This document shows positions 29,156-50,623 of a DNA stretch of 51,767 bases, one piece after another; positions within the stretch are counted from its first letter, which is position 1; every line of letters starts with the position of its first letter. The notes under the pieces are model-generated. The model did no database searches. It was not told the origin of the DNA and saw only the letters and a program-made list of their open reading frames with translations. Origin of the DNA: Desulfobulbaceae bacterium (lineage in GTDB: Bacteria; Desulfobacterota; Desulfobulbia; Desulfobulbales; VMSU01); contig JADGBM010000011.1 in NCBI GenBank assembly GCA_015231515.1, positions 1-51,767 of the forward strand, written 5' to 3'. The translations under genes were made by a program, and so were the position numbers.

Positions 29156-29386
29156 ATTCTTTTACGCTAGCTTTTGAAAAACAGTTTGTGATAGAGTGTA
29201 GTTAAAGAAGTTTCTCTGCGGATGTCGCAGGGTTTCCCCTTCGGATTTCCGGGGGTTATGGGCTATTCGTTTGGTGCTTGGCCAATTGAGGCTGGGCGAT
29301 AGGGCTGGAGATCAGATAGCTTTTTATAGCTGTTTAGTTTGCACCTCTCAGGCGAATAATTGCTGAAAACATGTAGGAGGGTTTCT

Positions 29387-29917
29387 ATGGAGCTTCAGGT
29401 AGAAGGCCGTAATGTAAGTATCAGAAACGCGTGGCAGGAAAAAATCGAAGATGAAAAGGAGCGTTTGGACAGGCATCATCCTGGGCTTGTGCACAATTTA
29501 CGTGTAACAATCACAGCGACAAAGCATCACAAGGAAGGGGGGTACGAGTTGCAGGTAGTTGCATCGGTGCCGAATGATACCGTAGTTGTGAAGCGCAAGG
29601 GTGAAACTGTCCGCGTTTTGCTTGGTGATGCTTTTGACACGTTGGGTGGTCAGTTAAAGGAGCTACAGCGCAAGCGTCGGCAGACCACCAAGGTTCCAGA
29701 CAGTGTAGCCGGGGCATCAATAGAAGGTGTAATCAAAAAACTGGTTCCCTATGAGTCTTATGGTTTTTTAACGACTTCTGACGGCAAAGAAGTTTATTTT
29801 CACGAAAACTCATTAAAAGATGTAACGATGGATCGCTTGTCGGAAGGAGATAATGTTAAATTTGGCGAGGGCGAAGGAGATAAAGGCCCTTGTGCTGCTT
29901 GGGTACGATCAGCATAG
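29387..29917 (+). CDS. Ribosome hibernation factor RaiA/HPF-type domain fused to a cold-shock domain
   Basis: A 176-residue two-domain protein. Residues 1-95 have the HPF/RaiA pattern (MELQVEGRNVSIRNAWQEKI, RVTITATKHHKEGGYELQVVASVP, FDTLGGQLKEL). Residues about 112-176 form a cold-shock/S1-like domain: GVIKKLVPYESYGFLTT (RNP1-like) and KEVYFHENSL (RNP2-like), ending CAAWVR. Likely binds the small ribosomal subunit and RNA under stress. The ATG at 29387 has AGGAGGG before it. The preceding 231-base leader (29156-29386) may be a structured cold-shock-like 5' UTR; I see only a small CTGCG/CGCAG hairpin there. Confidence 0.88.
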   Translation: MELQVEGRNVSIRNAWQEKIEDEKERLDRHHPGLVHNLRVTITATKHHKEGGYELQVVASVPNDTVVVKRKGETVRVLLGDAFDTLGGQLKELQRKRRQTTKVPDSVAGASIEGVIKKLVPYESYGFLTTSDGKEVYFHENSLKDVTMDRLSEGDNVKFGEGEGDKGPCAAWVRSA

Positions 29918-31136: not shown

Positions 31137-31140
31137 GGCA

Positions 31141-31260
31141 CTGGTTGACTTGGTGATTGGTGGATTAGTTAATTGGTTAACTGGTTGATTGGTTAATTGG
31201 TTAACTGGTAATGGCAACGATAGACCCAACCAACTCAACAAACCCAACTAACCCAACTAA
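31141..31260. repeat. Paired octanucleotide intergenic element (GGTTAACT/GGTTGATT left arm, CCAACTAA right arm)
   Basis: The left arm (31141-31209) is a run of 8-base units GGTTGATT, GGTTAATT and GGTTAACT. After a short centre, the right arm (31227-31260) is built of CCCAACTAAC-type units complementary in character. It fills the gap between convergent nadA and the phosphatase gene and abuts the phosphatase stop. Confidence 0.75.
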
Positions 31261-31922
31261 CCCACCGGCCAAAACTTCTCTCCTTTTACCTGAATAAATT
31301 CAAGCTCTGGAAGCACAAGGCATGTGAGGTGGCCACCATATACGGCACCGGTATCGATGCCTATCTTTCCTGGGCCAACCTTTGGTTTTTTGAAGGCCGA
31401 GTGGCCATAAACAACTGTTTTTTCTTCACTGTTTGGCGTCATGCTGTCTGTGCTGTCTCGTGACCAGAGAAGCCACTCTTCTGACTGAAGGGCCATTGGC
31501 ACCCCGGGCTCGATTCCTGCGTGAGCGTAAATCTGCTTGTCATCCTCCCAGTAGAGCAGCAGTTCGTTAAAAAAACGGAGATGCTCTCTGGGAAGTTTTT
31601 CACTTGCATCATCCTCAGGAGTTAACCCATAGCTCTCTAATGTTTGCAGGCCACCAAAATGCAAAAAGGCCTTTTGCTTAACAGCAGCAATGTAATCCAG
31701 CAACATTCGTTCATGATTTCCCATCAGGGTGATGGTGTGCGGATATTCAGCTCGAATGTTGAGGACGGTATCAACAACCTCTCGTGATTGAGGGCCGCGA
31801 TCGATATAGTCACCAAGAAATACAATTCGGGCATCAGCCGGGATCGGCCCAATTTTGTCGAGGAGTCGCAAAAGGACATCGTTGCAGCCGTGAATATCGC
31901 CAATTATATAAGTTGCAGTCAT
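31257..31922 (-). CDS. Calcineurin-like metallophosphoesterase (PrpA/ApaH-like phosphatase)
   Basis: A 221-residue phosphoprotein phosphatase-fold enzyme. Metal motifs are GDIHGC (8-13), FLGDYIDRGPQSREVVDTV, MGNHERMLLD, and later histidines in IYAHAGIEPG and VYGHSAF. It is most like bacterial serine/threonine phosphatases; diadenosine tetraphosphatase activity is an alternative. Its ATG is 1 base after the stop of the upstream TPR lipoprotein gene, so it is translationally coupled to it. This links it to the exopolysaccharide region, perhaps as a partner in phospho-signalling (inference). Confidence 0.85.
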   Translation of the reverse strand: MTATYIIGDIHGCNDVLLRLLDKIGPIPADARIVFLGDYIDRGPQSREVVDTVLNIRAEYPHTITLMGNHERMLLDYIAAVKQKAFLHFGGLQTLESYGLTPEDDASEKLPREHLRFFNELLLYWEDDKQIYAHAGIEPGVPMALQSEEWLLWSRDSTDSMTPNSEEKTVVYGHSAFKKPKVGPGKIGIDTGAVYGGHLTCLVLPELEFIQVKGEKFWPVG

Positions 31923-31923
31923 G

Positions 31924-34212
31924 CTACTGAAGAGAATTTAGTAACTGTTTGGCCTGTTCAAGTTCTGGGAAATCAGGTGTTGTGATGGCCTCTGTAACCG
32001 CTTTTCTTGCCTCGTCAACCTTGCCGTCACCCTTTAGGGCCAGAGCAAGATGATATTTGAAGGTGCCTAACTCTGGTTTGGCTTCAATGGCCTGGCGAAA
32101 TTGGGTTGCGGCAAGAGAGTACGACTCTCTTTTTAAATGAACCCAGCCAAGCGTATCGCTGATATGAGGATCTTCAGGGAAGGCACCTTTAGCGATCATC
32201 GACAGGCGCAGGGCTTCACCCAAGTCAGCGTTTTCTTCTTGAGTTAAAAGCCAGGCCAGATTGTTGGCCGCTGCTGCGGAATTTGGAACTATTTCAAGAA
32301 CTTTCCGGTAGGCTTCCTTGGCGAGTGCTGTTTCGCCGGCCCGGTCACGCAAGGCGCCAATTGCTAAAATTGCCGGCACGTAATTTGGCACGAGCTCTGT
32401 GAGTGTTTCGTATTCCTGTATCGCCTCATCTCTTTTACCTGTTGAATTAAGAATTCGGGCAATTTGCATAAAAGGCTGTGGACTTTTAGGCGAGAGCTTT
32501 TGCACTTTTCTGAAGGCCTCAACTGCCTCGTTAAATTGCTGGTTGTCAGCAAGCAGATTCCCTAAGAGCATGCTGTGGCCAGCAGTATCAGGAGATTTTT
32601 GAACATATTTTTGGGCTGTAGCGAGGGCTGCGGCGCCATCGTTTTTGCTTTGATAGATATTGACCAGCGTGATCAGTGCTGGTGTGTTGTCTGGTTCAAG
32701 GGTTAAGATTTTTTCCAGATCCTGCTGGGCCTCTTTGGTCTTTTTCAGGGCCAGACTGGCTAGGGCCTTATTGTGGAGAACTTCGGTGTTGTCTGGGAGC
32801 ATGCTGGCCATTTCAGAAAAGATCTTGAGTGCCTTCTCGTATTCCTTATTATGTAAGATGCTTTTGCCGAGAATGATGGCCGCTCTGTAATTGCTGGGTT
32901 TGAGCCGTAAGGCAATGGCTGCCTCCTTGGCAGCATTGTCGAAGTCATTGACCATCAGGTAATGCTGACCCAGCAGGGTATGGGCGTTGGCATTGTTGTT
33001 ATCTAAGCGCACAGCCTCGGTGGCTGAAGCCTGGGAAAGCTCAGCCTCATTTTGTCCCATCAGGGCGAGGGCTTTCTGGTAATGGGCCTCACTCCAATTG
33101 GGCTGGTTTGTGATCAGTGTTTCCAGTATGGTAAGAGCCTCCTGGTTACTGCCATCCTTGATGAGAAGTTTGGCTTTTACCAGATTCCCCCTGCCATGTT
33201 TAGGGCCATCAGCCAAAATGGCATCGACCTCTTCCTGGGCCAGGTCATATTTGTGCTGTTCAAAATAAAAGTCGGCAAGGACTGCTTTTACATCCTGGGG
33301 CCGGTCAGTTTTTTCAATGGCCTTTTTAAAAGAACTCTCAGCTTCCGCAAATCTATTCTGCTGTGTATAAATATCACCAAGTAAAAGATAAAAGTCCGGG
33401 CTGTCTGGAGTCTTAATCAGCCCTTCTTTAATGACACCTTCGGCTTTATCAGGATTGTTTTGGCCCAGATAGAAAGCGGCAAGCGAAAAGTAGGGTTGGG
33501 TGGAGTCTGAGAAATTACTCTTTATAGTAATAAGCTGCTGCTCGGCTTTGTCTGGGAGCTGTTGGGACTGATAGAAGCTGGCTAAGGCCTGCTGGAAAGA
33601 GATCTCCTCGGGTTCGAGTTCAATTGCCTTTTTAAGAGATTGTTCCGCTGCTTCATTGTCTTTTTTGATCGATTTAACTTTAGCCTGGGTTAAGTAGAGC
33701 CTGGCTAAGGCGGGGTTTGCCTGGATGGCTTTGTCAATCGCCTCCTGGGCTCCGTCAATGTTGTCGTCCATCAAATCAAGATTGGCCTTTAGGGCAAGGG
33801 CTTCGGCGTGATTTTGATCCTGCGTTAGAATTGTATCAACGTATTTCCGACTTTCCTCTTTTTGCTTGCCGAGAAATAGAAGCTCTGCCGCCTTAAGTGC
33901 TGCATCAAGATTAGTGGTGTCGAGGTTTGAGGCGCGACTCAACTCGTTTAGTGCATTACGAGGTTCTTGATTCTTTAAGTGCAAAAGCCCTAATTGGTAG
34001 CGGGCATCCGCATACTTCGGATCAAGCTGAATAGCATTTTTAAACTCAATTATTGCTGCACTGGAGTTATCTTGTTTAAGATACTCCATCCCTTGAGTGA
34101 AATGGCTGAGTTTCTTGTCATCACTGTTTTTACAGCCAGAAATGAAACTCAGCATGGAAAATAACATGATAACGGCGGCTAAGGTTTGTTTAGTTTTATA
34201 GGCCTGGGGCAT
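31924..34212 (-). CDS. Large TPR-repeat lipoprotein (PrsT-like)
   Basis: A 762-residue lipoprotein. The lipobox FISGC puts the lipidated Cys at about residue 27. The rest is continuous tetratricopeptide repeats of 34 residues, for example AAIIEFKNAIQLDPKYADARYQLGLLHLK and many further ...A...YQKALALM, LEPDNTPALITLVNIY, VPNYVPAILAIGAL units. It resembles the PEP-CTERM-system TPR lipoprotein PrsT and other scaffolds of polysaccharide secretion; the final units match those of the neighbouring TPR protein. GGAGAG lies 5 bases before the ATG. Gap to the upstream gene is 24 bases. Confidence 0.85.
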   Translation of the reverse strand: MPQAYKTKQTLAAVIMLFSMLSFISGCKNSDDKKLSHFTQGMEYLKQDNSSAAIIEFKNAIQLDPKYADARYQLGLLHLKNQEPRNALNELSRASNLDTTNLDAALKAAELLFLGKQKEESRKYVDTILTQDQNHAEALALKANLDLMDDNIDGAQEAIDKAIQANPALARLYLTQAKVKSIKKDNEAAEQSLKKAIELEPEEISFQQALASFYQSQQLPDKAEQQLITIKSNFSDSTQPYFSLAAFYLGQNNPDKAEGVIKEGLIKTPDSPDFYLLLGDIYTQQNRFAEAESSFKKAIEKTDRPQDVKAVLADFYFEQHKYDLAQEEVDAILADGPKHGRGNLVKAKLLIKDGSNQEALTILETLITNQPNWSEAHYQKALALMGQNEAELSQASATEAVRLDNNNANAHTLLGQHYLMVNDFDNAAKEAAIALRLKPSNYRAAIILGKSILHNKEYEKALKIFSEMASMLPDNTEVLHNKALASLALKKTKEAQQDLEKILTLEPDNTPALITLVNIYQSKNDGAAALATAQKYVQKSPDTAGHSMLLGNLLADNQQFNEAVEAFRKVQKLSPKSPQPFMQIARILNSTGKRDEAIQEYETLTELVPNYVPAILAIGALRDRAGETALAKEAYRKVLEIVPNSAAAANNLAWLLTQEENADLGEALRLSMIAKGAFPEDPHISDTLGWVHLKRESYSLAATQFRQAIEAKPELGTFKYHLALALKGDGKVDEARKAVTEAITTPDFPELEQAKQLLNSLQ

Positions 34213-34236
34213 AGAGACTCTCCGGTTGTTTGAAAA

Positions 34237-36462
34237 TTAATTGTTTTGTTTGTCAATGATGGCTTGAGCTTCAATCAGTTTACCTGGTTCAAGCCCATTT
34301 GCAACTGCTTGACTGGCATATTTTTGAGCGGCCGGAACATTTAGTGTTGCTTCATAGGTTTTAGCTAAGTGAAAAAGAATAATTGGATTGTTGGGACTTT
34401 GGCTTAAAGCTTCTTCGAACAGCCATTTTGCTCGAGTAAAATTTTGTTTTTTTAAGTATGCCCAACCAAGAGTATCAGCAATGGCAGGATCATCAGGGGC
34501 AAGGTCATAGGCTTTTTGCGCGAGTATGAACGCATCGTCGGTGTTTATTCCATTGTCAAGGTAAAGACATGCTAAGTTATTGCTAATATGAGGCGATGTC
34601 GGGTTTTGTGCAAGGCTTTCTTGTAAAGTTTGAGTGGCGCTGTCAACGGAAAGTTGTTTTAGTTGGAGTTCTGCGAGTTTTAGCGCAGCCGCCTCAAAGG
34701 TTGGCTGAAGTTGTAATGTTTTTTGGTAGTTTATGATCGCCTTCTGCCATTGATTTTGTTTTTCATAGAGTTCAGCCAGATAAAAGTAGGCGGAGTAGTT
34801 TTCGGGATTAATCTCTAGCGTTTTTTGCAGGTGATTTTCTGCCTGCTCAAATTTTCTTTCTAAGAAAAAGAACTTGCCCAGTTCTAAATACGATACAGGT
34901 GATATCTGTGGTCGACTTGTAATAAAATCGATATACTCCTGTACTTTTTGATACCCGCCTATTTGCTTAAGGGTGTTAAGGTATTTGCCTAATAAAATTT
35001 GGTCTTCTATTCCTTGGTCAAGGAGCGCTCTGTACTTCTCGGCGGCACTGTTAATGTCTGTGTGTTCTGAAATTTGAATTGAATAATAACTGGGACTAAG
35101 GTTTTGACTATTAAGCTCGCCAGCATTTTCGAAATCCTCTCTGGCCTGGTCGAGTGACCCCTGTAAAAGGTGAAGCTGTCCCGCAAGCAGATAGGAACGG
35201 TAGTTCTCAGGCTCTTTTTCTTTGACTCGCTCAAGATATTGGAGGCTGGTTGCAAACTCCTCATTCAGGAAAAAAATATTGGCCAGTAAGAGTTCCGCGT
35301 CGGTAAAATTAGGGTCAAGACTTAAGGCTTTTGTGGCATTTTGGCGGGCTAAACTTTGATGCCCTCCGGCAAGATAGGCGACGGATAAAAGATAGTGAGA
35401 AAGTGGGAATTTCGGCTCCTTTTTAACAGCTTCGGAAAACATGGAAACGGCAAAGTCAGGTTCCTTATTAAGGAGATAATATTTACCTTTAAGCAGATAG
35501 GTTTCAACGTCAATTGCACCGGCATCTTCGAGTGTTTTAAAAAGCTGTAATGATTCGTCAAATTGTGCAAGGCGCAAATGCACCTCAATTAAGAATTTAC
35601 TGAAAATAGGGTTTTGTGGTTGCTGAGAGTGAGCGTTTTCCAGGACAGCAAGGGCTGAGCGGTAGTTCTCATTAAAGAAAAATAGTTCAGCAAGATTTTT
35701 TTTCAATAATAGATTGTTTGGGTCAGCTTCAATCGCTTTTTGTAGGTTGGCTTCTGCTTCAGAAATATTCCCCTGTATTCGATAAAATAGCGCAACCTGA
35801 AAAAGGATTTCAGGTTTTCTTAGGGAGGTGTCGGAAACTTCTTTGAGCAGTAACTCTGCTTCCCGGTCTTTTTTGAGGCTAAGCAGGCTTATAGCTAAAC
35901 GGCAAAGGATATGGTCTTTTTCCTTATCTGTACTCTTCTTTAATGCTGCCCGATATGATTGTTCTGCCTGGGTAAAGTTTTTCTCAACAATGTATAAATC
36001 GCCATAGGCAAGTAACCTCTCTACCGTGGATAAGGGGGCGAGGCTATCGAGGGTAGACTCGGCCATTTTAAGGTTATAGGTAAGTGTGTCTTGCTTGGCC
36101 ATGGCCAGCTTTATTGCTGTAGATTTTGGGTAAAGAGCTACCGCTTTCTGTAGTATGGACTGAGTTTTGGAAATTTGACATAGCTTCTGAAACGCTTCAG
36201 CCTGGTTAATATACATCTCTTCAGAATGAAACTCCGGCGCAAGTGCCAACAGTTTTTGCCACTGGGCAGTTGCTTCAATATAATTGCCCTCGTCATAGTA
36301 ACGGCGTGCATCTTGATGAAGTTCTTGAGCAAGTTTTTTGGGGGGCGGTGAGCATGAAATGATAGTGCATGCCAGAGAAATCAAAAGCAGATGTTTCCAT
36401 AAAAGCAGTACCATGCCTGGTTGAAATTGTAACTGTTTTTGAATGTGATATTTTGATAACAT
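34237..36462 (-). CDS. Second large TPR-repeat lipoprotein
   Basis: A 741-residue protein with a hydrophobic N-terminus and lipobox TIISC (Cys about 37 from the first ATG), followed by about 18-20 TPR units (ATAQWQKLLALAPEF, AEANLQKAIEADPNNLLLKKNLAELFF, AENHLQKTLEINPENYSAYFYLAELYEKQ). The ending (DLAPDDPAIADTLGWAYLKKQNFTRAKWLFEEALSQSP) closely parallels that of the next gene, so the two are probably ancient duplicates. The ATG at 36462 is 5 bases after the upstream stop; an internal ATG at 36414 (MVLLLWKH) would give a more normal signal peptide and may be the true start. Confidence 0.82.
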   Translation of the reverse strand: MLSKYHIQKQLQFQPGMVLLLWKHLLLISLACTIISCSPPPKKLAQELHQDARRYYDEGNYIEATAQWQKLLALAPEFHSEEMYINQAEAFQKLCQISKTQSILQKAVALYPKSTAIKLAMAKQDTLTYNLKMAESTLDSLAPLSTVERLLAYGDLYIVEKNFTQAEQSYRAALKKSTDKEKDHILCRLAISLLSLKKDREAELLLKEVSDTSLRKPEILFQVALFYRIQGNISEAEANLQKAIEADPNNLLLKKNLAELFFFNENYRSALAVLENAHSQQPQNPIFSKFLIEVHLRLAQFDESLQLFKTLEDAGAIDVETYLLKGKYYLLNKEPDFAVSMFSEAVKKEPKFPLSHYLLSVAYLAGGHQSLARQNATKALSLDPNFTDAELLLANIFFLNEEFATSLQYLERVKEKEPENYRSYLLAGQLHLLQGSLDQAREDFENAGELNSQNLSPSYYSIQISEHTDINSAAEKYRALLDQGIEDQILLGKYLNTLKQIGGYQKVQEYIDFITSRPQISPVSYLELGKFFFLERKFEQAENHLQKTLEINPENYSAYFYLAELYEKQNQWQKAIINYQKTLQLQPTFEAAALKLAELQLKQLSVDSATQTLQESLAQNPTSPHISNNLACLYLDNGINTDDAFILAQKAYDLAPDDPAIADTLGWAYLKKQNFTRAKWLFEEALSQSPNNPIILFHLAKTYEATLNVPAAQKYASQAVANGLEPGKLIEAQAIIDKQNN

Positions 36463-36467
36463 AGCGA

Positions 36468-37328
36468 TTACTGTTTTGACGATCGTAAACTTGAAAAAAT
36501 ACTGATGACGACTATGACACCAATACCAAAAATCGCACTCTCAAGTGCGTGTGCCATCATATAGCTTAGGGCCCGCAGTGGCGCCTTAATGATCCAGGGA
36601 AGTTCTATGTCATCATAAAAAAGAGATGAGTTCGCGCGGCGTTCTATTTTGTTGTTGTTGTTTGTCTCGGTGGGGATAAGCGGAAGAGCATCCCTGAAAT
36701 AGGGATTTTTGAAGCTGGGGTTACTAAAATCAGCAGACGCTAACTGTTTTCCCGACCCTACGGGTATTGAGCCAGTAGCAACAGGTGATTTATTGGCTAT
36801 TTCATCTGCTGTTTTTAGCTCCTTACTTATATATTTCACGAGATCTCTGAACTCCATAAGCGATGAGGTCAAGATTTGTGGGAGCTCATTTATTTGCGTA
36901 TTGGCTAACATTGCGGGTGTCGTATCTGCTGTGCTGATTTCTTTTAGAATGTCTTGGGCCTTCTTTTGTACGAGAATATAGTCATCGAGTATTTTTTTTA
37001 GTTTAATGTTGGCATATAAAGTATTCTCAATGCTGTCCTTGGGGATGGTTGGGTTTTGGAGGGCATTAAACAAAGGCATTGAAAAAGGAATGCTGTTTTT
37101 GGGGAAAGAGGGGTTGTCTGCTATGGGGTTTTTGCTGTCATCGTGTGTTTCGATCAGCAGTAATTGGGCGGTAGGGGCGATGACAACGATGTTATGGGAT
37201 CCTGAATTTTCAGGGTTGGCTGAGGTTGGATATCCTGAGGCGGGCACGAATGTTTTAAGTACGAAGAGTACTGGCATCAGGGTGGTTATCAGAAGTATAA
37301 AGATACTTTTTTTAGAGAAGTAAGGCAT
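36468..37328 (-). CDS. Unknown protein with membrane helices at both ends
   Basis: A 286-residue protein I do not recognise. Residues 8-28 are a hydrophobic helix or signal anchor; residues about 262-280 form a second one (ESAIFGIGVIVVISIFSSL) with a short tail RSSKQ. Between them lie a Pro/Asn-rich stretch (60-100), a helical segment with coiled-coil character (104-135 and 155-178) and a Ser/Pro-rich region (180-225) ending in an Asn run. It is the first gene of the operon with the two TPR lipoproteins and the phosphatase, divergent from the exopolysaccharide operon, so a role in polysaccharide or sorting-related envelope assembly is possible. The C-terminal helix lacks a PEP-like motif. Confidence 0.75.
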   Translation of the reverse strand: MPYFSKKSIFILLITTLMPVLFVLKTFVPASGYPTSANPENSGSHNIVVIAPTAQLLLIETHDDSKNPIADNPSFPKNSIPFSMPLFNALQNPTIPKDSIENTLYANIKLKKILDDYILVQKKAQDILKEISTADTTPAMLANTQINELPQILTSSLMEFRDLVKYISKELKTADEIANKSPVATGSIPVGSGKQLASADFSNPSFKNPYFRDALPLIPTETNNNNKIERRANSSLFYDDIELPWIIKAPLRALSYMMAHALESAIFGIGVIVVISIFSSLRSSKQ

Positions 37329-37423: not shown

Positions 37424-37533
37424 CGCATATAAAGACAAATATTCATAGCCTAATCAAGCCTCTTTGGAAATAAGGGGGAGCTTGATGACGGTTTTCAGGC
37501 AAGTTCAAGATGGTAATGCTACGGGGGGTGGGT

Positions 37534-38142
37534 ATGTGGACAGTGTTCAATTATAGGCAGTTGCTTGTTGTGTTTTTTGTATTGTGCTTTATGCAGATAC
37601 ACAATGAGGTTTTGGCTTCAGAGCAAGAGGTTAACCAAAACAAACAACCGGTGGAGTTTGGTGAGTATGTAATTGGTCTTGGGGATCAGTTGCAGATTAT
37701 GGTCTGGAAGGAACCGGAGCTTTCGCATTCCACGTTTGTTCGAATTGATGGCCGGATTTCTTTACCGCTGGTTGGGGATGTTTTTGCGGCAGGCAAAACA
37801 ATTAAAGTGTTTCGCGGCGAGTTGGAAGGTCTGCTCAGTCAAGTAGTCGCTGAGCCGGCTGTGTCTGTTATGTTGTTGCAGAGTAAAAGCTGGCGCTATT
37901 ATATACTTGGCCAAATTAAGCAGCCCGGAGAGTTTCCTATTGATTACCCAATTACCCTGCTTCAGGCAATTGCGCGAAGTGGAGGGTTTATGGAATGGGC
38001 CAAAAAAGACGAAATTATAATAATTAGAAGAACTGATGATAAGGACACAATTGTCAAGTTCAACTATGATTCACTTGTGAAAGGTGAAAATTTGGCACAA
38101 AACATTATCTTACAGCCGGGAGATACAATCATTGTCCCATAA
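37534..38142 (+). CDS. Polysaccharide export protein (Wza/EpsE-like, SLBB domain)
   Basis: A 202-residue secreted protein. The signal peptide (about 1-28) lacks a lipobox. A Poly_export domain follows (EYVIGLGDQLQIMVWKEPELS...VRIDGRISLPLVGDV), then an SLBB beta-grasp (YYILGQIKQPGEFPIDYPITLLQAIARSGGF) ending LQPGDTIIVP. It is shorter than E. coli Wza (379 aa) and lacks the C-terminal amphipathic helix, so the following barrel protein may complete the outer-membrane channel. The ATG at 37534 follows a G-rich ribosome site; ATG at 37510 is an alternative. First gene of the eight-gene operon. Confidence 0.88.
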   Translation: MWTVFNYRQLLVVFFVLCFMQIHNEVLASEQEVNQNKQPVEFGEYVIGLGDQLQIMVWKEPELSHSTFVRIDGRISLPLVGDVFAAGKTIKVFRGELEGLLSQVVAEPAVSVMLLQSKSWRYYILGQIKQPGEFPIDYPITLLQAIARSGGFMEWAKKDEIIIIRRTDDKDTIVKFNYDSLVKGENLAQNIILQPGDTIIVP

Positions 38143-38167: not shown

Positions 38168-39616
38168 ATGAAAAAAGTTAATTTTTGTATATTTATACTA
38201 ATATGTGGTCTAAGCCTCCCAGGGGTCATTTCCGCCCGGCAGAACAGTCTTGAGGGAAGTGTTGGCTTAGAGAATGATTATCGTTCCAATGTTTTTAATA
38301 CCAAGTCTGGCCACGTTGATGAGTGGAATACACAACTGTCTCCAGTTCTGACGGTTGTATCTGTTGGACAGAGTGACAATATGTCGGTGACCTATGCGCC
38401 GACATTTTCCTACAACCATCGCCGAGATGAAAATGAGCTTGAATATGGGGGGGTATCTTTTGCGGGGGATAAAGCACTTTCCGGGCAGTGGAAACTAAGT
38501 GTTTCAGATTCGTATAATTACCATGAAGCTCCGGTTTTTGAAGCAAATACGAGCTTGAGCCTGGGGCAGCAATTTCTCAGGGCAGATGATGCCACCCAGG
38601 CCGAGATCGTTCGCTTACTCTTTCCTGAAATGACAAGCTGGGATGGTTCCCAGACGACCCAGATTCTTGCCGAAATTGATACTAGATATCAAGCCGCGAC
38701 CCAGTCTGTGAAGAATCAGGTTGATCGACTTCTTGACCCTGCCAGTAATGGGCAAACTCGAAAACGTTACTGGGATAATTCCTTATCTCTAGTAAGCGAT
38801 TATGAATTTGCCAAAAACAGCACGTTATCCTTGGGGTACTCGATTGATGTCCATGATGAAAAGACTGGCATACAGGCTGATAGTGTTTCTCACGCACCAA
38901 ACCTTTCGATCTCCTATGAGATATCTCCGCAATGGGCAATACAGGCTGGCTATGGTTATGGTTATACAAGTTATGATACCTCGGATGACAGTAAGTCGGA
39001 TGATATTGACCTGAGACTTGAGTTTAACCCACAACCGTCAACTTCTCTCTATGGCGCGTATACTTTTGCTGCAATTGATTATGACGGTAATACCGACAAC
39101 TCGACTACGCAAAGCACCTCTGTTGGCATCTCCCATGAAATTGACCAAAACACCAGCCTGAACGGAGATCTTGGCTTTTCGTATCTGGCGCGTGGAATAG
39201 CAGCAGATGAGAGGGATTTTTCATTAACAACCTCGCTCTCAAGGGCAATCTCCCGGGGATCTATTTCCGCCAATATTGGAGCGGATCTTGGCGAAACCAG
39301 CTCGACAGGAAGCTGGGGGAAATTGAGTAATAGTTGGAGCATAGGAAGTGTTCTTCAATACGATTGGTCGCAGGATGTTTCAACATCGCTAGATTTTTCT
39401 TATGAACGCCGTAATTCCTGGACAAACAGTTCAAAAACCACCTATGATGATTTTAACGCTGGTGCCGGGGTGTCCATCCCATTTTTGCAATGGTTTGTTG
39501 TCTCTGTCGATTATGATTATCACCTTTTTGATTCAACCGGCACAAGTGTCGATGATTATGATGAGCATCGAGTCAGCGTTAACCTGTCAGCCAGTAAAGA
39601 GCTACTTCGTTGGTAA
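38168..39616 (+). CDS. Outer-membrane beta-barrel protein of the exopolysaccharide/exosortase locus
   Basis: A 482-residue protein with a signal peptide (1-23, ending VISA) and alternating amphipathic strands throughout with aromatic girdles (LSLVSDYEFAKNSTLSLGYSID, WAIQAGYGYGYTSYDTSDD, TSTSLDFSYERRNSW, WFVVSVDYDYHLFDSTG). No characteristic enzyme motif. It fits the TIGR03016-type barrel commonly found between the export and chain-length genes of exosortase loci. Likely the outer-membrane porin for the polymer (inference). GAGGAA precedes the ATG. Confidence 0.78.
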   Translation: MKKVNFCIFILICGLSLPGVISARQNSLEGSVGLENDYRSNVFNTKSGHVDEWNTQLSPVLTVVSVGQSDNMSVTYAPTFSYNHRRDENELEYGGVSFAGDKALSGQWKLSVSDSYNYHEAPVFEANTSLSLGQQFLRADDATQAEIVRLLFPEMTSWDGSQTTQILAEIDTRYQAATQSVKNQVDRLLDPASNGQTRKRYWDNSLSLVSDYEFAKNSTLSLGYSIDVHDEKTGIQADSVSHAPNLSISYEISPQWAIQAGYGYGYTSYDTSDDSKSDDIDLRLEFNPQPSTSLYGAYTFAAIDYDGNTDNSTTQSTSVGISHEIDQNTSLNGDLGFSYLARGIAADERDFSLTTSLSRAISRGSISANIGADLGETSSTGSWGKLSNSWSIGSVLQYDWSQDVSTSLDFSYERRNSWTNSSKTTYDDFNAGAGVSIPFLQWFVVSVDYDYHLFDSTGTSVDDYDEHRVSVNLSASKELLRW

Positions 39617-41347: not shown

Positions 41348-42298
41348 ATGTACGAAAAATATTATGGACTTCGCTCCAAGCCGTTCGATCTAATCCCCGA
41401 TCCCGACACGGTATTTATGAGTGATTCCCACCAGGAAGCTCTGGCTGTCTTACGCTATGGGGTGATTGATCGTAAAGGTTTTTTGCTGCTTACGGGGGGT
41501 GTTGGGACCGGCAAAACAACACTCCTGCAGGTACTCTCTCAATCGATAGATTCAAAAGTTCATCTTTGTCTCCTCTCAAATCCAACTCTTTCAATTAATG
41601 AATTCTATTATTTCCTGGCAGCTAAATATGGGTTGCCGGAATACGACTTTAATAAAGCGAAATTTATGCTGCAATATGCAGATTTCTTGAGGTTGTGTCG
41701 TGAAAAAAAAGAGAGGGTTCTGTTAATCATTGACGAGGCACACGCCCTGCCGGAAGACCTGTTGGAGGAGATCAGACTTCTTTCTAATCAGGAACATCAA
41801 GAATTTGGTTTGATGAGCATTTTTCTCGTTGGACAGCCCGAGCTTAATGAACGATTGGCGAGTGACAGGATGTTGCCCTTGCGTCAGCGGATCGGTATCC
41901 GTTTTCACCTGGAACCTTTTTCAAAGGAAGAGACGCAGCAGTATATTAATTTTAGATTGATGAAAGCTGGTTGCCAGCGGGGTAATTTATTTGATCCTAG
42001 TGCAGTTGAAACCATCCATGCTTTGAGTAAAGGGATTCCGCGTTTGATTAATGTGATATGTGATCAGGCATTGCTTTCAGGTTTTGCTGAAGAAAAATCA
42101 GTGGTCGACCAAACAATTATAACTGCATGTATCAATGAGATGCAGATTTCCGGTAAAGTGGTTGAGTTGCCGCACTCCCCTGAACCCGCAGAGAAACGCC
42201 GCTTATCAAAATGGTTTGTAGCAGTTAATTTTGGGTTAGGAATTGCTATCATTCTTGCCGGTGTGATACTATATTTATTTGTAGTGAATAATCGATAG
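41348..42298 (+). CDS. ExeA-like AAA ATPase of exosortase/exopolysaccharide locus
   Basis: A 316-residue ATPase: YYGLRSKPFDLIPDPDTVFMS (6-26) is the ExeA-family opening, Walker A GGVGTGKTT at 50-58, Walker B LLIIDEAHALP near 125, sensor FLVGQPELNERL, and C-terminal GIPRLINVICDQALLSG. A membrane helix at about 290-312 anchors it. Matches from memory the XrtA/PEP-CTERM-associated ATPase (TIGR03015). Its exact role in export is unknown; relatives move secretion components through peptidoglycan. Confidence 0.88.
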   Translation: MYEKYYGLRSKPFDLIPDPDTVFMSDSHQEALAVLRYGVIDRKGFLLLTGGVGTGKTTLLQVLSQSIDSKVHLCLLSNPTLSINEFYYFLAAKYGLPEYDFNKAKFMLQYADFLRLCREKKERVLLIIDEAHALPEDLLEEIRLLSNQEHQEFGLMSIFLVGQPELNERLASDRMLPLRQRIGIRFHLEPFSKEETQQYINFRLMKAGCQRGNLFDPSAVETIHALSKGIPRLINVICDQALLSGFAEEKSVVDQTIITACINEMQISGKVVELPHSPEPAEKRRLSKWFVAVNFGLGIAIILAGVILYLFVVNNR

Positions 42299-42393: not shown

Positions 42394-43293
42394 TTGGGAA
42401 AAGTCTTTAAAGCATTAAACAAATTTAAGGGTGTATCCCCGGAGATTGACAGTGCCGCTGAAACGAGCCTGCAAAACAAAACCGAAGAAGAATTTGAAGC
42501 CTCTTCTTCGGTCCAGCCTTCAAATAAAGTTGAACAGCAATTACACTCTACTCCGAAGAGTGTTGCCCCTCAAACAAAGACCGTTCCCAGTGGGCAGTGG
42601 GATGAAAAACTATTGACCTTTTCTGAACCTGGATCAGTGTTTTCTGAAAATATTCGAAAACTTAGAACGCGTATCCTTCACCCTGGTACGGCAGAGCCCT
42701 TTAAGAAAATATTAGTCACAAGTGCGCTTCCTGGAGCAGGGAAAAGTTTTACTTGCGCTAATCTGGGAATAGCAATAGCACAAGGCCTAGAGCACCACGC
42801 CTTACTGGTTGATTGCGATTTGCGCAGGCCCAACTTGGCTGCTTGGTTTGGTGTTGCTTCACAAGACGGTAGAGGACTTGTGAATTATCTCCGCGATGAC
42901 GAAGATCTTGGCGACCTCATCATGAAAACTGGTATGGAAAAATTATCAATTATTCCGGGGGGCACTCCACCGCCAAATCCTGCTGAAGTATTGGGAACAA
43001 CAAGAGTGGGACAAATGTTTGCCCAGTTGGAAAACAGATATGATGACAGATTTATTATTATCGATACGCCTCCAGCAATGCTAGCCAATGAAGTTTTTGT
43101 TCTGGCAAGGCATGCAGATGCCGTTGTCGTTGTTGTCCGTTGGGGAGGAGGGGGGAAGGAACAGGTGAAACAGCTTGTTGATTCTATTGGCAGAGAAAAA
43201 CTTATTGGAGTGGTTTTTAATGGTTACCAGACAAACTTTTTCAGCACGCAGCTTTCTGGCTATAATGAATACGCCCAGTACAGTTACAAGTAA
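42394..43293 (+). CDS. Tyrosine autokinase of polysaccharide synthesis (CpsD/EpsG-like)
   Basis: A 299-residue BY-kinase. Residues 1-70 are an unstructured linker. Walker A LPGAGKSFT (112-120), Walker A' LLVDCDLRRPNL and Walker B IIIDTPPAM are intact, and the C-terminus has a tyrosine cluster (YNEYAQYSYK, 290-299), the usual autophosphorylation site. It starts at TTG 42394 with GAGGTG 5 bases before. Works with the chain-length protein; phosphorylation would be reversed by a phosphatase not evident beside it, unless the metallophosphatase at 31257 serves (inference). Confidence 0.88.
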   Translation: MGKVFKALNKFKGVSPEIDSAAETSLQNKTEEEFEASSSVQPSNKVEQQLHSTPKSVAPQTKTVPSGQWDEKLLTFSEPGSVFSENIRKLRTRILHPGTAEPFKKILVTSALPGAGKSFTCANLGIAIAQGLEHHALLVDCDLRRPNLAAWFGVASQDGRGLVNYLRDDEDLGDLIMKTGMEKLSIIPGGTPPPNPAEVLGTTRVGQMFAQLENRYDDRFIIIDTPPAMLANEVFVLARHADAVVVVVRWGGGGKEQVKQLVDSIGREKLIGVVFNGYQTNFFSTQLSGYNEYAQYSYK

Positions 43294-44711: not shown

Positions 44712-45542
44712 ATGATGATATTGTCGAGGTTAATTCAGTGGATAGTTATTGTGGGGCTTGCAGTCTTTTTTTACTGGGATGTGCTGACTGCCTGGGGTCA
44801 AAATCTATGGGACGATCCGAATTACTCGCACGGCCTGCTTATACCGTTTATTGCCATGTATATTGTCAGGGAGAAACAAGCTCAGTTGCAACGAGCAAAA
44901 CAGCAGACATATTGGCCAGGCCTGGTTGTCGTTTGTTTAGCGGTTTTGCTTTATGCGGCTGGGTATGTCGGGGCAGAATTTTTCACTAAACGGCTCTCCT
45001 TTCTGGTTTTGTTGTACGGAATGATTCTCTTTCTGGAAGGCAAAGAGGTTGCAAAAATCCTTCGATTTCCAGTGGCGGTACTTTTTTTCGCTGTTCCATT
45101 GCCGTATGTTCTTTATAACTCGGTGGCATTTCCTTTAAAGTTGATTGCATCAAAGATAGCAGCCTTCCTTATTGCCCTCACAGGTATGCCAGTTTTTTTG
45201 GAAGGTAATGTTATTGCGCTTTCACATACTACCATGGAAGTGGTTGATGCCTGCAGCGGTATTCGGTCGTTGATGACACTTTTTACTCTCGCCTTTCTGC
45301 TCGGCTATTTTCAGCACAAACAAACCTGGAAAAGAGTTATTGTTTTGTTGCTTGCCACGCCGGTTGCGGTTTTCAGTAATGCTGTGCGCGTTACTGCAAC
45401 GGGAATATTAACCAAATACGACCCAGCCTGGGCGGAAGGAAGCCTGCATGACACAACGGGATGGTTGGTTTTTGTGTTGGCCTTTGCGATGTTGCTGGCT
45501 GGTTCGGCTCTTTTGAAAGGGGGGCGAAGTGAAAAACTTTAA
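44712..45542 (+). CDS. Exosortase (EpsH/Xrt family)
   Basis: A 276-residue polytopic cysteine transpeptidase-like protein. The catalytic triad is C181 (VVDACSGIRSL), R226 (FSNAVRVTATG) and H246 (LHDTTGW). Conserved SHGLLIPF (39-46) and FFAVPLPYVLYN are present, with about eight membrane helices. Exosortases recognise PEP-CTERM-like tails on secreted proteins, cleave them and are thought to attach them to the envelope or matrix. It overlaps the next gene (epsI) by 14 bases. Which Xrt subtype (A, D or other) cannot be decided by eye. Confidence 0.9.
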   Translation: MMILSRLIQWIVIVGLAVFFYWDVLTAWGQNLWDDPNYSHGLLIPFIAMYIVREKQAQLQRAKQQTYWPGLVVVCLAVLLYAAGYVGAEFFTKRLSFLVLLYGMILFLEGKEVAKILRFPVAVLFFAVPLPYVLYNSVAFPLKLIASKIAAFLIALTGMPVFLEGNVIALSHTTMEVVDACSGIRSLMTLFTLAFLLGYFQHKQTWKRVIVLLLATPVAVFSNAVRVTATGILTKYDPAWAEGSLHDTTGWLVFVLAFAMLLAGSALLKGGRSEKL

Positions 45543-46164
45543 GGGCTCCATTGTTTTATGCCTGATTCTGGTCGCTTCTATCTGGTGGTTTAAAGGTCTG
45601 GGCACGATTGTACCTCAGGAGATGCCGACACCATTTTCTGAGTTCCCGAAAGTAATTGGCAATTTTACCTTTGCCGGATCGCAACAGTTTAGCGAAGCTG
45701 TTGTTGAGAGTGCTGGCATGGATGAGTACATCATGTGGTCGTATAAAGATCCTGATGGTTACGTTTTAGGGCTTTATGTCGGCTTTTACCGTGATCAGAC
45801 AGAGGGTTCAATTATCCACTCGCCCAAACATTGCATGCCCGGAAGTGGTTGGGAACCATCAGAAGTAGGAACCGTTGAGTTTCAAGATCCTCAAGGGCAC
45901 CGCTTCAAGGTGAACCGTATGGTATTGCAAAAAGGTGTTGATAAACAGTTGGCCTACTACTGGTATCAAGGCAGGGGGCGGGTGCTTGCCAGTGAATATG
46001 CTGACCGGGCGTATATGGTGCTTGATTCGATTGCTTTGAAGCGATCGGATGGGGCTTTGGTTCGTATTACAGGGCCAGGGAATAATGTTGACGAGTATAG
46101 TAAGAAACAGCAGCAATTCATGGGCTCCTTAATGCCTGTTTTGGAAAAGTTTTTACCACAATAG
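45529..46164 (+). CDS. EpsI family exosortase-associated protein
   Basis: A 211-residue protein of the EpsI/DUF3485 type. An N-terminal membrane anchor (about 5-24) is followed by a periplasmic domain with YVGFYRDQTEGSIIHSPKHCMPGSGW, the family's HSPxxCxPGxGW signature, and LAYYWYQGRGRVLASEYADRAYMVLDSI. Always linked or fused to exosortases; the conserved Cys (CMPGSGW) suggests a catalytic role, not established. Starts at GTG within the exosortase end. Confidence 0.9.
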   Translation: MKNFKGSIVLCLILVASIWWFKGLGTIVPQEMPTPFSEFPKVIGNFTFAGSQQFSEAVVESAGMDEYIMWSYKDPDGYVLGLYVGFYRDQTEGSIIHSPKHCMPGSGWEPSEVGTVEFQDPQGHRFKVNRMVLQKGVDKQLAYYWYQGRGRVLASEYADRAYMVLDSIALKRSDGALVRITGPGNNVDEYSKKQQQFMGSLMPVLEKFLPQ

Positions 46165-48175: not shown

Positions 48176-49465
48176 ATGGATATTTCAAAATCATGTGTTG
48201 CGGTTGTTGGGTTAGGGTACGTAGGGCTGCCGCTGGCAATTGCCTTTGGTAAGCAGATTAAAACGATTGGTTACGACCTGAAAAAAGAAAGTATTGAGGC
48301 CTATCGAAAGGGAATAGATCCCAATGAAGAGGTCGATTCAGAAGGTTTTGCCGAATCTAAACTTACTCAGTTTACCAACGACCCAAAGGACATTGCGCAG
48401 GCGGATTTTATTATTGTTGCGGTGCCAACTCCAATCGATCAGGCCAGGCAACCAGATCTGTCTCCAATGGTTGGGGCGGCTCAAACGGCAGGAAAGCAGA
48501 TGAAAAAAGGCGCGGTGGTTATTTTTGAGTCCACCGTTTATCCTGGAGTTACCGAAGAGATATGTGTGCCGATCCTCGAAAAAGTTTCCGGCATGGTCTG
48601 GAAAAAAGATTTCTTTGTCGGCTACTCCCCGGAGCGGATAAATCCAGGCGATAAAGAGCACACCCTGACCAAGATTGTCAAGGTTGTTTCCGGGGATTGT
48701 GAGGAGACCCTGGCCGGTGTCAAAGCGCTTTACGAATCGATTATTGTTGCCGGAGTATACCCAACCAAATCAATAAAAGAGGCAGAAGCGGCCAAAGTTA
48801 TTGAAAATACCCAGCGGGACTTGAACATAGCCCTGATGAATGAACTTGCTGTGATTTTTGATCGTTTAGACATCGACACTAAAAATGTGCTGGAAGCTGC
48901 CGGCACTAAGTGGAACTTTCTACCTTTTCGACCGGGCCTGGTTGGCGGCCATTGTATAGGTGTTGATCCCTATTATCTAACACACAAAGCTGAGACCGTT
49001 GGCTATCACCCTGAAGTGATTTTAGCAGGAAGAAGAATTAATGACGGAATGGGAAAGTTTATTGCCGAAAAAACCGTGAAGATGATGCTTCATTCTGACA
49101 GACGAGCGCAACGGCGGGTTGGGATTCTCGGCTTGACCTTTAAAGAAAACTGCCCCGACTTAAGAAATTCAAAAGTTGTTGATATTATAAATGAATTGAA
49201 AGCCTATGACATGACAGTTTTGGTTTATGATCCTAAGGTCACTAAAGATGATGCTATGCGTCATATGGGGGTTAAACTCTGTGATTGGGAAGATTTACAG
49301 GATCTTGGTGCCTTGATCTTTGCTGTGCCGCACAGGGAACTGTTGGCTAAAAGTGTGGCAGACCTTGTTGGAACTTTAACAGAAAAGGGTTCCCTAATTG
49401 ATGTAAAATCGGTGCTTGATGTCGCAGAAGTCAAGAAACATGATGTCAATTTCTGGAGACTGTAA
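48176..49465 (+). CDS. Nucleotide-sugar 6-dehydrogenase (TviB/WbpA-like)
   Basis: A 429-residue UDP-sugar dehydrogenase. The NAD motif VVGLGYVGLPLA is at 10-21, catalytic Cys260 in FRPGLVGGHCIGVDPYYL, and GLTFKENCPDLRNSKV near 320. It matches the TviB/WbpA group (UDP-N-acetylhexosamine dehydrogenases) better than UDP-glucose dehydrogenase, and the TviC-like epimerase next door supports this. Oxidises C6 of UDP-HexNAc to the uronate. Starts 14 bases after glmS. Confidence 0.9.
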   Translation: MDISKSCVAVVGLGYVGLPLAIAFGKQIKTIGYDLKKESIEAYRKGIDPNEEVDSEGFAESKLTQFTNDPKDIAQADFIIVAVPTPIDQARQPDLSPMVGAAQTAGKQMKKGAVVIFESTVYPGVTEEICVPILEKVSGMVWKKDFFVGYSPERINPGDKEHTLTKIVKVVSGDCEETLAGVKALYESIIVAGVYPTKSIKEAEAAKVIENTQRDLNIALMNELAVIFDRLDIDTKNVLEAAGTKWNFLPFRPGLVGGHCIGVDPYYLTHKAETVGYHPEVILAGRRINDGMGKFIAEKTVKMMLHSDRRAQRRVGILGLTFKENCPDLRNSKVVDIINELKAYDMTVLVYDPKVTKDDAMRHMGVKLCDWEDLQDLGALIFAVPHRELLAKSVADLVGTLTEKGSLIDVKSVLDVAEVKKHDVNFWRL

Positions 49466-49466
49466 T

Positions 49467-49588
49467 TTGGTTGACTGGTTGATCGGTTGACTGGTTGACT
49501 GGTTGATTGGTTAACTGGTGAGTTCACTATCCACTCAACAAACCCAACAAACTCAACAAACCCAACAACCCAATAACCCAACAAAAAA
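49467..49588. repeat. Paired octanucleotide intergenic element inside the nucleotide-sugar operon
   Basis: Left arm: GGTTGACT, GGTTGATC, GGTTGACT, GGTTGACT, GGTTGATT, GGTTAACT (49468-49516). Centre: GGTGAGTTCACTATCCACTC. Right arm: AACAAACCC/AACAAACTC/AACCCAATAACCC units to 49584. It separates two co-directional genes of one pathway and would be transcribed. Confidence 0.85.
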
Positions 49589-49597
49589 GAGAAGATT

Positions 49598-50623
49598 ATG
49601 AGTACATATAAAGAGATACAAGAGCAGCTCAGGAAATCCCCAAAAACATGGCTTGTGACCGGAGTTGCCGGCTTTATTGGCTCTAATTTGCTGGAGACGC
49701 TGCTCAAACTTGAGCAAAGGGTTGTGGGCTTGGATAATTTTTCTACTGGTCATCAGCGCAATCTGGATGAGGTTCAAGCACTGGTAAGTGCAGACCAGTG
49801 GCAAAAATTTACAATGATAGAAGGAGATATCCGCAACCTTGACGACTGTAGTCTGGCCTGTAAGGATGTTGATTATGTGCTGCATCAGGCGGCGCTGGGT
49901 TCGGTTCCCCGCTCGATTGAGGATCCTATTACGACCAATGCCAATAACCTGACGGGATTCCTTCATATGCTTGTGGCAGCCCGTGATGCCGGAGTAAAAC
50001 GGTTTGTCTATGCGGCCTCAAGTTCAACCTATGGTGATCATCCTGGCCTTCCCAAGGTTGAAGATACAATTGGCAACCCACTGTCTCCGTATGCTGTGAC
50101 AAAGTACGTCAACGAGCTCTATGCTAGTGTTTTTGCCCGCACCTATGGCTTGCAGAGTATGGGGCTTCGCTATTTTAACGTCTTTGGCCGACGCCAGGAT
50201 CCAAATGGAGCGTATGCCGCAGTTATCCCGAAATGGTTTTCCGGAATGCTTAAGGGTGAGGAGATCATCATCAACGGGACCGGTGAAACCAGCAGAGATT
50301 TTTGCTATATCGACAATACGGTTCAGGCGAATATCCTGTCAGCCTGTGCAACGCACGCCGAGGCTGCCAATCAGGTCTATAATGTTGCCTATGGTGATCG
50401 CACTAGTTTGAATGAGCTCTTTAATCACATTAAAGATCGTGTCGTGCCTTACCGCGCAGAAGTTCAAAATAGTGAGCCAACCCATCGTGATTTTCGTGCC
50501 GGTGATGTTATGCATTCACTCGCCGATATCTCCAAGGCCAAGAAGCTTTTGGGCTATGAGCCAACTTTTTCTGTTGGGGCCGGTTTGGATGAAGCAACAA
50601 AGTGGTATGTGGAGAACTTATGA
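49598..50623 (+). CDS. UDP-N-acetylhexosamine(uronate) 4-epimerase (TviC/WbpP-like)
   Basis: A 341-residue extended SDR enzyme. The NAD motif [14 protein letters not shown] is at about 20-33, the catalytic SSS/Y..K residues lie in [15 protein letters not shown] and [14 protein letters not shown], and [17 protein letters not shown] is typical of WbpP/TviC. It interconverts UDP-GlcNAc(A) and UDP-GalNAc(A). AGAGAAG precedes the ATG. The stop overlaps the next start by ATGA. Confidence 0.9.

Follow-up and report, generated by a model that had tools for sequence, protein, structure and literature searches.

A calcineurin-fold phosphatase as candidate partner of an export-operon tyrosine kinase in a Desulfobulbaceae bacterium

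The window analysed here is the 51,767-nt stretch of contig JADGBM010000011.1 (contig C11) from the 3.4-Mb genome of a Desulfobulbaceae bacterium (GenBank assembly GCA_015231515.1). Four genes on its reverse strand encode a calcineurin-like phosphatase of the PPP family (hereafter PPP), two tetratricopeptide repeat (TPR) lipoproteins (PrsT1 and TPR2) and an uncharacterised protein (UNK); on the forward strand, a polysaccharide export operon encodes a stand-alone bacterial tyrosine kinase (BY-kinase), TyrK. We found that the four genes make up two modules, UNK+TPR2 (34237-37328) and PrsT1+PPP (31257-34212). Sequence comparison points to phospho-control of the BY-kinase of the neighbouring export operon as the most likely function of PPP, a reading that we favour with some reserve, and PPP probably switches that kinase off. 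A first-pass annotation of this DNA had proposed a phospho-control module with the tyrosine kinase, and this tie is now supported more strongly, by synteny, kinase clade and co-occurrence in genomes. Conservation of the four genes together, a doubling of PrsT in the sense of duplication and the exosortase as constant partner are rejected.

31257..31922, reverse strand: PPP, calcineurin-like phosphatase of the PPP family, 221 aa, candidate cognate phosphatase of the BY-kinase
31924..34212, reverse strand: PrsT1, PrsT-type TPR lipoprotein, 762 aa, TIGR02917 339.6 bits
34237..36462, reverse strand: TPR2, second TPR lipoprotein, of the UNK-linked group, 741 aa, TIGR02917 216 bits
36468..37328, reverse strand: UNK, uncharacterised protein without family assignment, 286 aa
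37329..37509: intergenic region between the divergent UNK and Wza genes, 181 nt

PPP is paired with one clade of tyrosine kinases

PPP, kinases, CpsB and low-molecular-weight protein-tyrosine phosphatases (LMW-PTP) were counted in the same 96 order-level genomes, own included. Homologues of PPP above 165 bits are called PPP-A, and the kinases counted are TIGR03018-type proteins of at least 100 bits. PPP-A lies within 15 kb of 22 of the 64 stand-alone kinases (23 with a contig-end fragment in G008), and CpsB lies near none of them. The fused (Wzc-type) kinases have CpsB within 15 kb in 25 of 39 cases and PPP in 0 of 39. The tree of the 64 stand-alone kinases, window included, divides into two fully supported halves, with 0 of 23 members linked to PPP in clade 1 and 23 of 41 in clade 2. 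None of the 23 clade-1 kinases, several of which are in exosortase loci, has a PPP, CpsB or LMW-PTP gene within 15 kb.

By genome (n = 96), PPP-A and a clade-2 kinase occur together in 36, PPP-A alone in 4, the kinase alone in 5 and neither in 51 (Fisher p 1.5e-16, a value that ignores relatedness), and the association of PPP-A with clade 1 is much weaker (15, 25, 5 and 51 in the same order; p 9e-4). By family, PPP-A and the clade-2 kinase are each found in 11 of 15, and 10 families are common to both. PPP is therefore encoded and co-occurs with a BY-kinase, as a cognate phosphatase of such a kinase is expected to, with exceptions. One family, f12, has a clade-2 kinase in three genomes and PPP-A in none. 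Two of its genomes with kinase and without PPP-A, G053 and G063, have LMW-PTP genes clustered with Wza and beta-barrel genes, and their kinases are the only 2 of the 64 stand-alone kinases with an LMW-PTP gene within 60 kb on the contig. Within 15 kb, such a gene is found by one stand-alone kinase (G053) and one fused kinase (G051).

In the 33 PPP loci fetched from relatives, PrsT lies within 150 bp of PPP in 17 and within 2 kb in 18, which bears out the earlier suggestion that the PrsT partner is tied to a phosphatase. Wza, Wzz or TyrK homologues lie within 8 kb in 23 loci, 9 of which are without PrsT, and the export genes are on the strand opposite PPP in every locus with Wza or Wzz but L047. 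Six loci lack both PrsT (within 2 kb) and export genes (within 8 kb), and 3 of these six are at or near a contig end. An exosortase is rejected as constant partner: any exosortase match was found in just 33 of the 96 relatives, and the PPP/BY-kinase link is far wider, being present in 10 of the 11 families with a clade-2 kinase.

Beyond the order, a homologue of a BY-kinase, Wza or Wzz accompanies PPP in the available stretch of 13 of the 80 named relatives, 4 of them close (L089, L091, L093, L099) and 9 from Alphaproteobacteria (L153-L156, L158, L162, L165, L166, L168), in which PPP homologues are neighbours of BY-kinases. Among plasmids, 366 records match PPP, and the neighbourhoods were examined in 8. 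In three of the 8 (Azospirillum, Leisingera, Sphingomonas), a tyrosine autokinase is annotated within 8 kb of the PPP homologue, and on the Azospirillum plasmid the kinase and phosphatase genes overlap; the rest have a Wzz/Etk-domain protein (one), an export protein (one), other polysaccharide genes (two) or none of these (one). As a separate observation from a single record, the Leisingera plasmid stretch L250 (5503-12166) carries, in a single row, an xrtE exosortase, the PPP homologue, a VPEID-CTERM protein, a sugar transferase and a BY-kinase.

Sequence and fold of PPP

PPP belongs to PF00149 (Metallophos; 57.2 bits against a cut-off of 21.5), its sole Pfam family at E 0.001, and no signal peptide was seen. 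Named relatives come from Deltaproteobacteria/Desulfobulbaceae assemblies, which points to Desulfobulbales as the order of the window. Residues D9, H11, D38, N69, H134 and H174, which we take to be metal ligands, are invariant together with R42 and H70 in 25 and in 29 homologues. The active-site residues are thus intact, and PPP has what we assume to be the PPP-type motif set, GDxHG / GDxxDRG / GNHE / H(A/G)G / GH.

The structure model of PPP (predicted local distance difference test 92.5, predicted TM-score 0.91) is nearest to the PnkP phosphatase (Z 25.4), RLPH2 (24.6), a putative Ap4A hydrolase (24.1) and ApaH (22.4), followed by lambda phosphatase (21.5) and a PPP-fold protein-tyrosine phosphatase from Shewanella (19.9). 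The predicted fold is compatible with phosphotyrosine activity, which it permits and does not prove. The proximity to PnkP and ApaH-like structures would also suit a nucleotide phosphatase (Ap4A/ApaH-like or PnkP-like) that lies between nadA and the export genes by chance. The top-scoring NCBIfam match is indeed symmetrical Ap4A hydrolase, and NadA is found within 2 kb in 18 of the 33 PPP loci. However, PPP misses all the equivalog cut-offs concerned (ApaH 92.7 against 176 bits, bacterial PnkP 85.6 against 750, PrpE 78.4 against 340), and its patchy spread (40 of 96 genomes) tracks the clade-2 kinase, unlike a housekeeping enzyme. We regard this explanation as improbable.

A second alternative is a Ser/Thr (or broadly acting protein) phosphatase whose target is another export or PEP-CTERM protein and not the BY-kinase tail. 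PssZ, a PPP-family protein of the exopolysaccharide (EPS) region of Rhizobium leguminosarum, is presented as a Ser/Thr phosphatase in the consulted parts of PMC6071215 and PMC7020829, and PPP has weak NCBIfam matches to protein-serine/threonine phosphatases (57.5 and 46.8 bits, under cut-off). In those parts, however, the specificity of PssZ is drawn from motifs, and the words 'phosphatase activity' do not occur in the 2018 paper. Moreover, the presence of PPP tracks one BY-kinase clade and excludes the CpsB-carrying fused kinases. A Ser/Thr phosphatase is accordingly a less probable reading, for which we would still allow about one chance in a handful.

Proposed function of PPP

BY-kinase cycling governs the chain length of capsule and EPS. 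In the reading that we prefer, PPP would be a cytoplasmic enzyme of calcineurin fold that dephosphorylates the Tyr-rich tail of TyrK (42394-43293) and in this way resets the cycle of kinase/Wzz assembly by which chain length and export are set. PPP would then do the job of Wzb (LMW-PTP) or CpsB (PHP) of other bacteria, as a calcineurin-fold stand-in. Neither the LMWPc (PF01451) nor the CpsB_CapC PHP (PF19567) domain was found in PPP at E 0.001, and a search for a Wzb-type (PF01451) or CpsB (PF19567) protein elsewhere in its own genome, which is 95% complete, gave 0 matches.

Several points weigh against this assignment. The PPP fold spans Ser/Thr, Tyr, Ap4A and PnkP phosphatases, and the proposed PPP-kinase link comes from comparison of sequences. 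The genomes compared are related and non-independent, and the 165-bit line for PPP-A was drawn after viewing the list (172.8 against 161.9 bits on its two sides). Three genomes (G006, G089 and, in f12, G068) have a clade-2 kinase without PPP-A or nearby LMW-PTP, and 4 have PPP-A without a clade-2 kinase. No kinase lies within 15 kb on the contig for 18 of the 40 PPP-A genes (17 counting the second fragment of G008); it is truly elsewhere in G005, G009, G024, G033 and G013, and several other unlinked PPP-A genes are at contig ends. Of the 80 named PPP relatives, 67 show none of the three genes (kinase, Wza, Wzz) in the available stretch; many of these 67 are short contigs or belong to a second PPP clade.

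We see about even chances that tyrosine phosphatases dedicated to BY-kinases include, next to LMW-PTP (Wzb) and PHP (CpsB), a third class with the calcineurin fold (PPP). In that case each kinase lineage within this order of sulfur bacteria would have a phosphatase fold of its own (stand-alone clade-2 kinases with PPP, fused kinases with CpsB), a Wzb-type enzyme would stand in where PPP is absent, and the pairing would extend to Alphaproteobacteria. Some export loci, that of the window included, are without Wzb and CpsB, and PPP would be their kinase-resetting enzyme. If this is true, a large set of proteins generically annotated as 'metallophosphoesterase' gains a testable function, and the replacement of a phosphatase by an unrelated fold can be traced within one order.

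Two modules instead of one conserved set

The neighbourhood comparison that had been named beforehand as the test of a conserved four-gene set found the set in 0 of the 95 other relatives, and its conservation is rejected. UNK itself occurs in 3 of the 96 order-level genomes (own, G087 and G093), and a profile of three rows detects it in 7 of 395 phylum genomes, own included. These are 9 genomes in total, and a TPR2-type gene adjoins UNK in all 9, with gaps of -139 to 238 nt in the 8 others (first-start open reading frames, ORFs). No PPP homologue was seen near UNK in the stretches of 5-20 kb fetched from those 8. In G087 and G093, UNK is far from the phosphatase: G093 holds UNK+TPR2 and PrsT+PPP apart, and the modules are likewise apart in G087, where PPP is without PrsT. 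The PrsT1+PPP pair, kept across the order beside the Wza/Wzz/kinase operon, turns out to be the older one, and UNK+TPR2 the rarer pair, located elsewhere in other genomes. In this lineage, UNK+TPR2 would have ended up between PrsT1 and the promoter region of Wza.

It had been proposed that the four genes make one functional complex, a scaffold plus a phosphatase, specific to this lineage. Their common strand, the gaps of 5, 24 and 1 nt and the polysaccharide or PEP-CTERM settings of both modules agree with such a complex; the lack of the set in all other relatives and the separation of the modules in G093 and in G087 speak against it, and we consider it quite unlikely.

The two TPR lipoproteins belong to different groups. 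PrsT1 passes the equivalog cut-off of TIGR02917 (339.6 against 312.2 bits) and TPR2 remains below it. The relatives of TPR2 score 225.8, 252.2, 311.9 and 324.1 bits and straddle the cut-off, so this model separates the two groups imperfectly. In the TPR tree, TPR2 and 8 UNK-linked relatives form one group and 18 PPP-linked PrsT proteins (PrsT1 and 17 others) form another, with support of 100/99 and with a long TPR2 branch that calls for caution. A local duplication of PrsT into TPR2, as implied by a doubled PrsT, is rejected by these separate, fully supported groups. PrsT1 may serve as a periplasmic or outer-membrane TPR lipoprotein scaffold of a secreted polymer/PEP-CTERM matrix.

UNK has an N-terminal hydrophobic segment, a C-terminal transmembrane segment followed by a short basic tail, and a conserved motif, LYAN..(K/R)..L..Y, in its mature part. 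At E 0.001 neither Pfam nor NCBIfam gives it a family, and weak Pfam matches to ALIX, PPP1R21 and SOUL (E 0.04-0.17) were taken as chance. In a nine-sequence search, homology to the window protein is solid in 7 of the 8 relatives (E 2e-14 to 3e-8) and weak for G275 (E 6e-4). The link of UNK to exosortases is weak, because the exosortase match found in all 3 UNK-holding relatives is present in 33 of the 96 anyway. The neighbours of UNK are polysaccharide genes and fibronectin-like proteins in G093 (names assigned by eye), the flocculation PEP-CTERM protein PepA in G299 (103.8 bits, cut-off 80), a PrsT above its cut-off in G275 (364.3 bits), and an HprK-related kinase A with a predicted nucleotidyltransferase in G252 and G276. 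In the stretches L084 (5276-8441) and L085 (7968-11257), HprK-related kinase A and an uncharacterised nucleotidyltransferase (PF14907) precede UNK, a setting unlike that of the window. UNK may be an envelope protein anchored by its C-terminal helix, with the lipoprotein TPR2 as partner, and the module would add an uncharacterised envelope protein family tied to PrsT-like lipoproteins.

Organisation of the window

The layout given in the first-pass annotation was reproduced. The four ORFs are separated by 5, 24 and 1 nt in the order UNK, TPR2, PrsT1, PPP, where the first gap presumes the first ATG of TPR2 and would be longer with a start at internal Met17. The calcineurin-like phosphatase was correctly named, the unknown bitopic protein has its two hydrophobic segments, and the two TPR lipoproteins both match many TPR models, carry lipoboxes (ISGC and IISC, by eye) and have the common ending NNLA...DTLGW. 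No promoter- or terminator-like signal was clearly beyond chance (12 against 9.2 in shuffles and 11 against 7.8), and a single transcript is inferred. A simple-repeat stretch of TTGGG/AACCA-type units, on either strand, lies at 31137-31260 between nadA and the end of PPP. At 29360-29917, an HPF/YfiA ribosome-hibernation domain is fused with a cold-shock domain, and homologues of similar length recur beside nadA in relatives.

As described earlier, the genes diverge from an exosortase locus, whose Wza/exosortase operon begins at 37510 and encodes a tyrosine kinase:

37510..38142, forward strand: Wza-like polysaccharide export protein, PF02563 71.3 bits, TIGR03027 139 bits (under cut-off 180)
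38168..39616, forward strand: outer-membrane beta-barrel protein, PF13505 30.4 bits
39668..41317, forward strand: Wzz-type chain-length determinant (XrtA type), stand-alone partner of TyrK, TIGR03007 246.6 bits (under cut-off 278.85)
41348..42298, forward strand: XrtA-associated AAA ATPase, TIGR03015 277.2 bits (under cut-off 324.5)
42394..43293, forward strand: stand-alone BY-kinase TyrK with Tyr-rich C-terminal tail, proposed PPP substrate, TIGR03018 180.2 bits
43300..44685, forward strand: EpsB-type initiating sugar transferase, TIGR03013 483.6 bits
44712-45542, forward strand: exosortase, TIGR02602 185.9 bits (cut-off 105.55)
45529-46164, forward strand: EpsI, TIGR02914 121.2 bits, overlapping the exosortase ORF

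EpsI is followed by GlmS and two Vi-antigen-like sugar genes. TyrK misses the cut-off for the XrtA-associated tyrosine autokinase (TIGR03018, 230.65 bits), which none of the 96 genomes passes, and it passes that for the polysaccharide tyrosine autokinase (TIGR01007, 116.7 against 108.05 bits). The genome has 12 PEP-CTERM matches, 11 with E < 2e-4. Of the long exosortase model XrtD (TIGR04152), the exosortase ORF matches the N-terminal part and the EpsI ORF the C-terminal part (44712-46164 for the two), and a second, longer exosortase frame is found at G000:C101:5173-5877 (516 aa). The TviB/TviC-like sugar genes at 48176-50623, 3' of the exosortase locus, suggest an acidic GlcNAcA/GalNAcA-type sugar in the polymer.

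Comparison with known systems

Literature joining BY-kinase, metallophosphoesterase and exopolysaccharide, or exosortase, tetratricopeptide and metallophosphoesterase, was not found in searches that left subscription papers mostly uncovered, and no claim of absence from print is made. The sole match for metallophosphoesterase, tyrosine autokinase and polysaccharide concerns, in its consulted part, iron in Bacteroidetes.

PrsT1 resembles the PrsT of the PEP-CTERM system as a TPR lipoprotein that passes the TIGR02917 cut-off, and differs in its pairing with PPP, with TPR2 in another group. The word 'phosphatase' has 0 occurrences in the PEP-CTERM paper of Haft 2006. Aquincola requires PrsT to form flocs, according to the consulted part of PMC9850573.

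The folds of CpsB/CapC (PHP) and Wzb (LMW-PTP), the known BY-kinase phosphatases, are unrelated to the PPP fold. They share with PPP the proposed job and the genetic position, whereas PPP matches neither family and its own genome is without either. Arabidopsis RLPH2, which the consulted part of PMC12817480 calls a bona fide tyrosine phosphatase, shares the PPP fold (root-mean-square deviation 2.1 over 211 residues) but is only 26% identical to PPP and is a plant enzyme with other substrates.

The closest precedents, likened here by description, are bacterial. PssZ, of the EPS synthesis and export region, is needed for EPS and shares PPP-family motifs with PPP, but is described as Ser/Thr-specific (PMC6071215, PMC7020829, consulted in part). 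Caulobacter CCNA_00167, a putative 'Wzb-like metallophosphatase' of the capsule locus, is encoded with a tyrosine kinase and Wza as PPP is; its kinase is Wzc-like, whereas that of PPP is stand-alone. Its deletion gave 'heavy' cells, a capsule defect that was complemented, and the relevant part of PMC4241560 reports no phosphatase assay. Given CCNA_00167 and PssZ, a metallophosphatase that serves a BY-kinase is not a new idea. What is new here is that the pairing is specific to a clade, that it excludes CpsB and that LMW-PTP can replace PPP.

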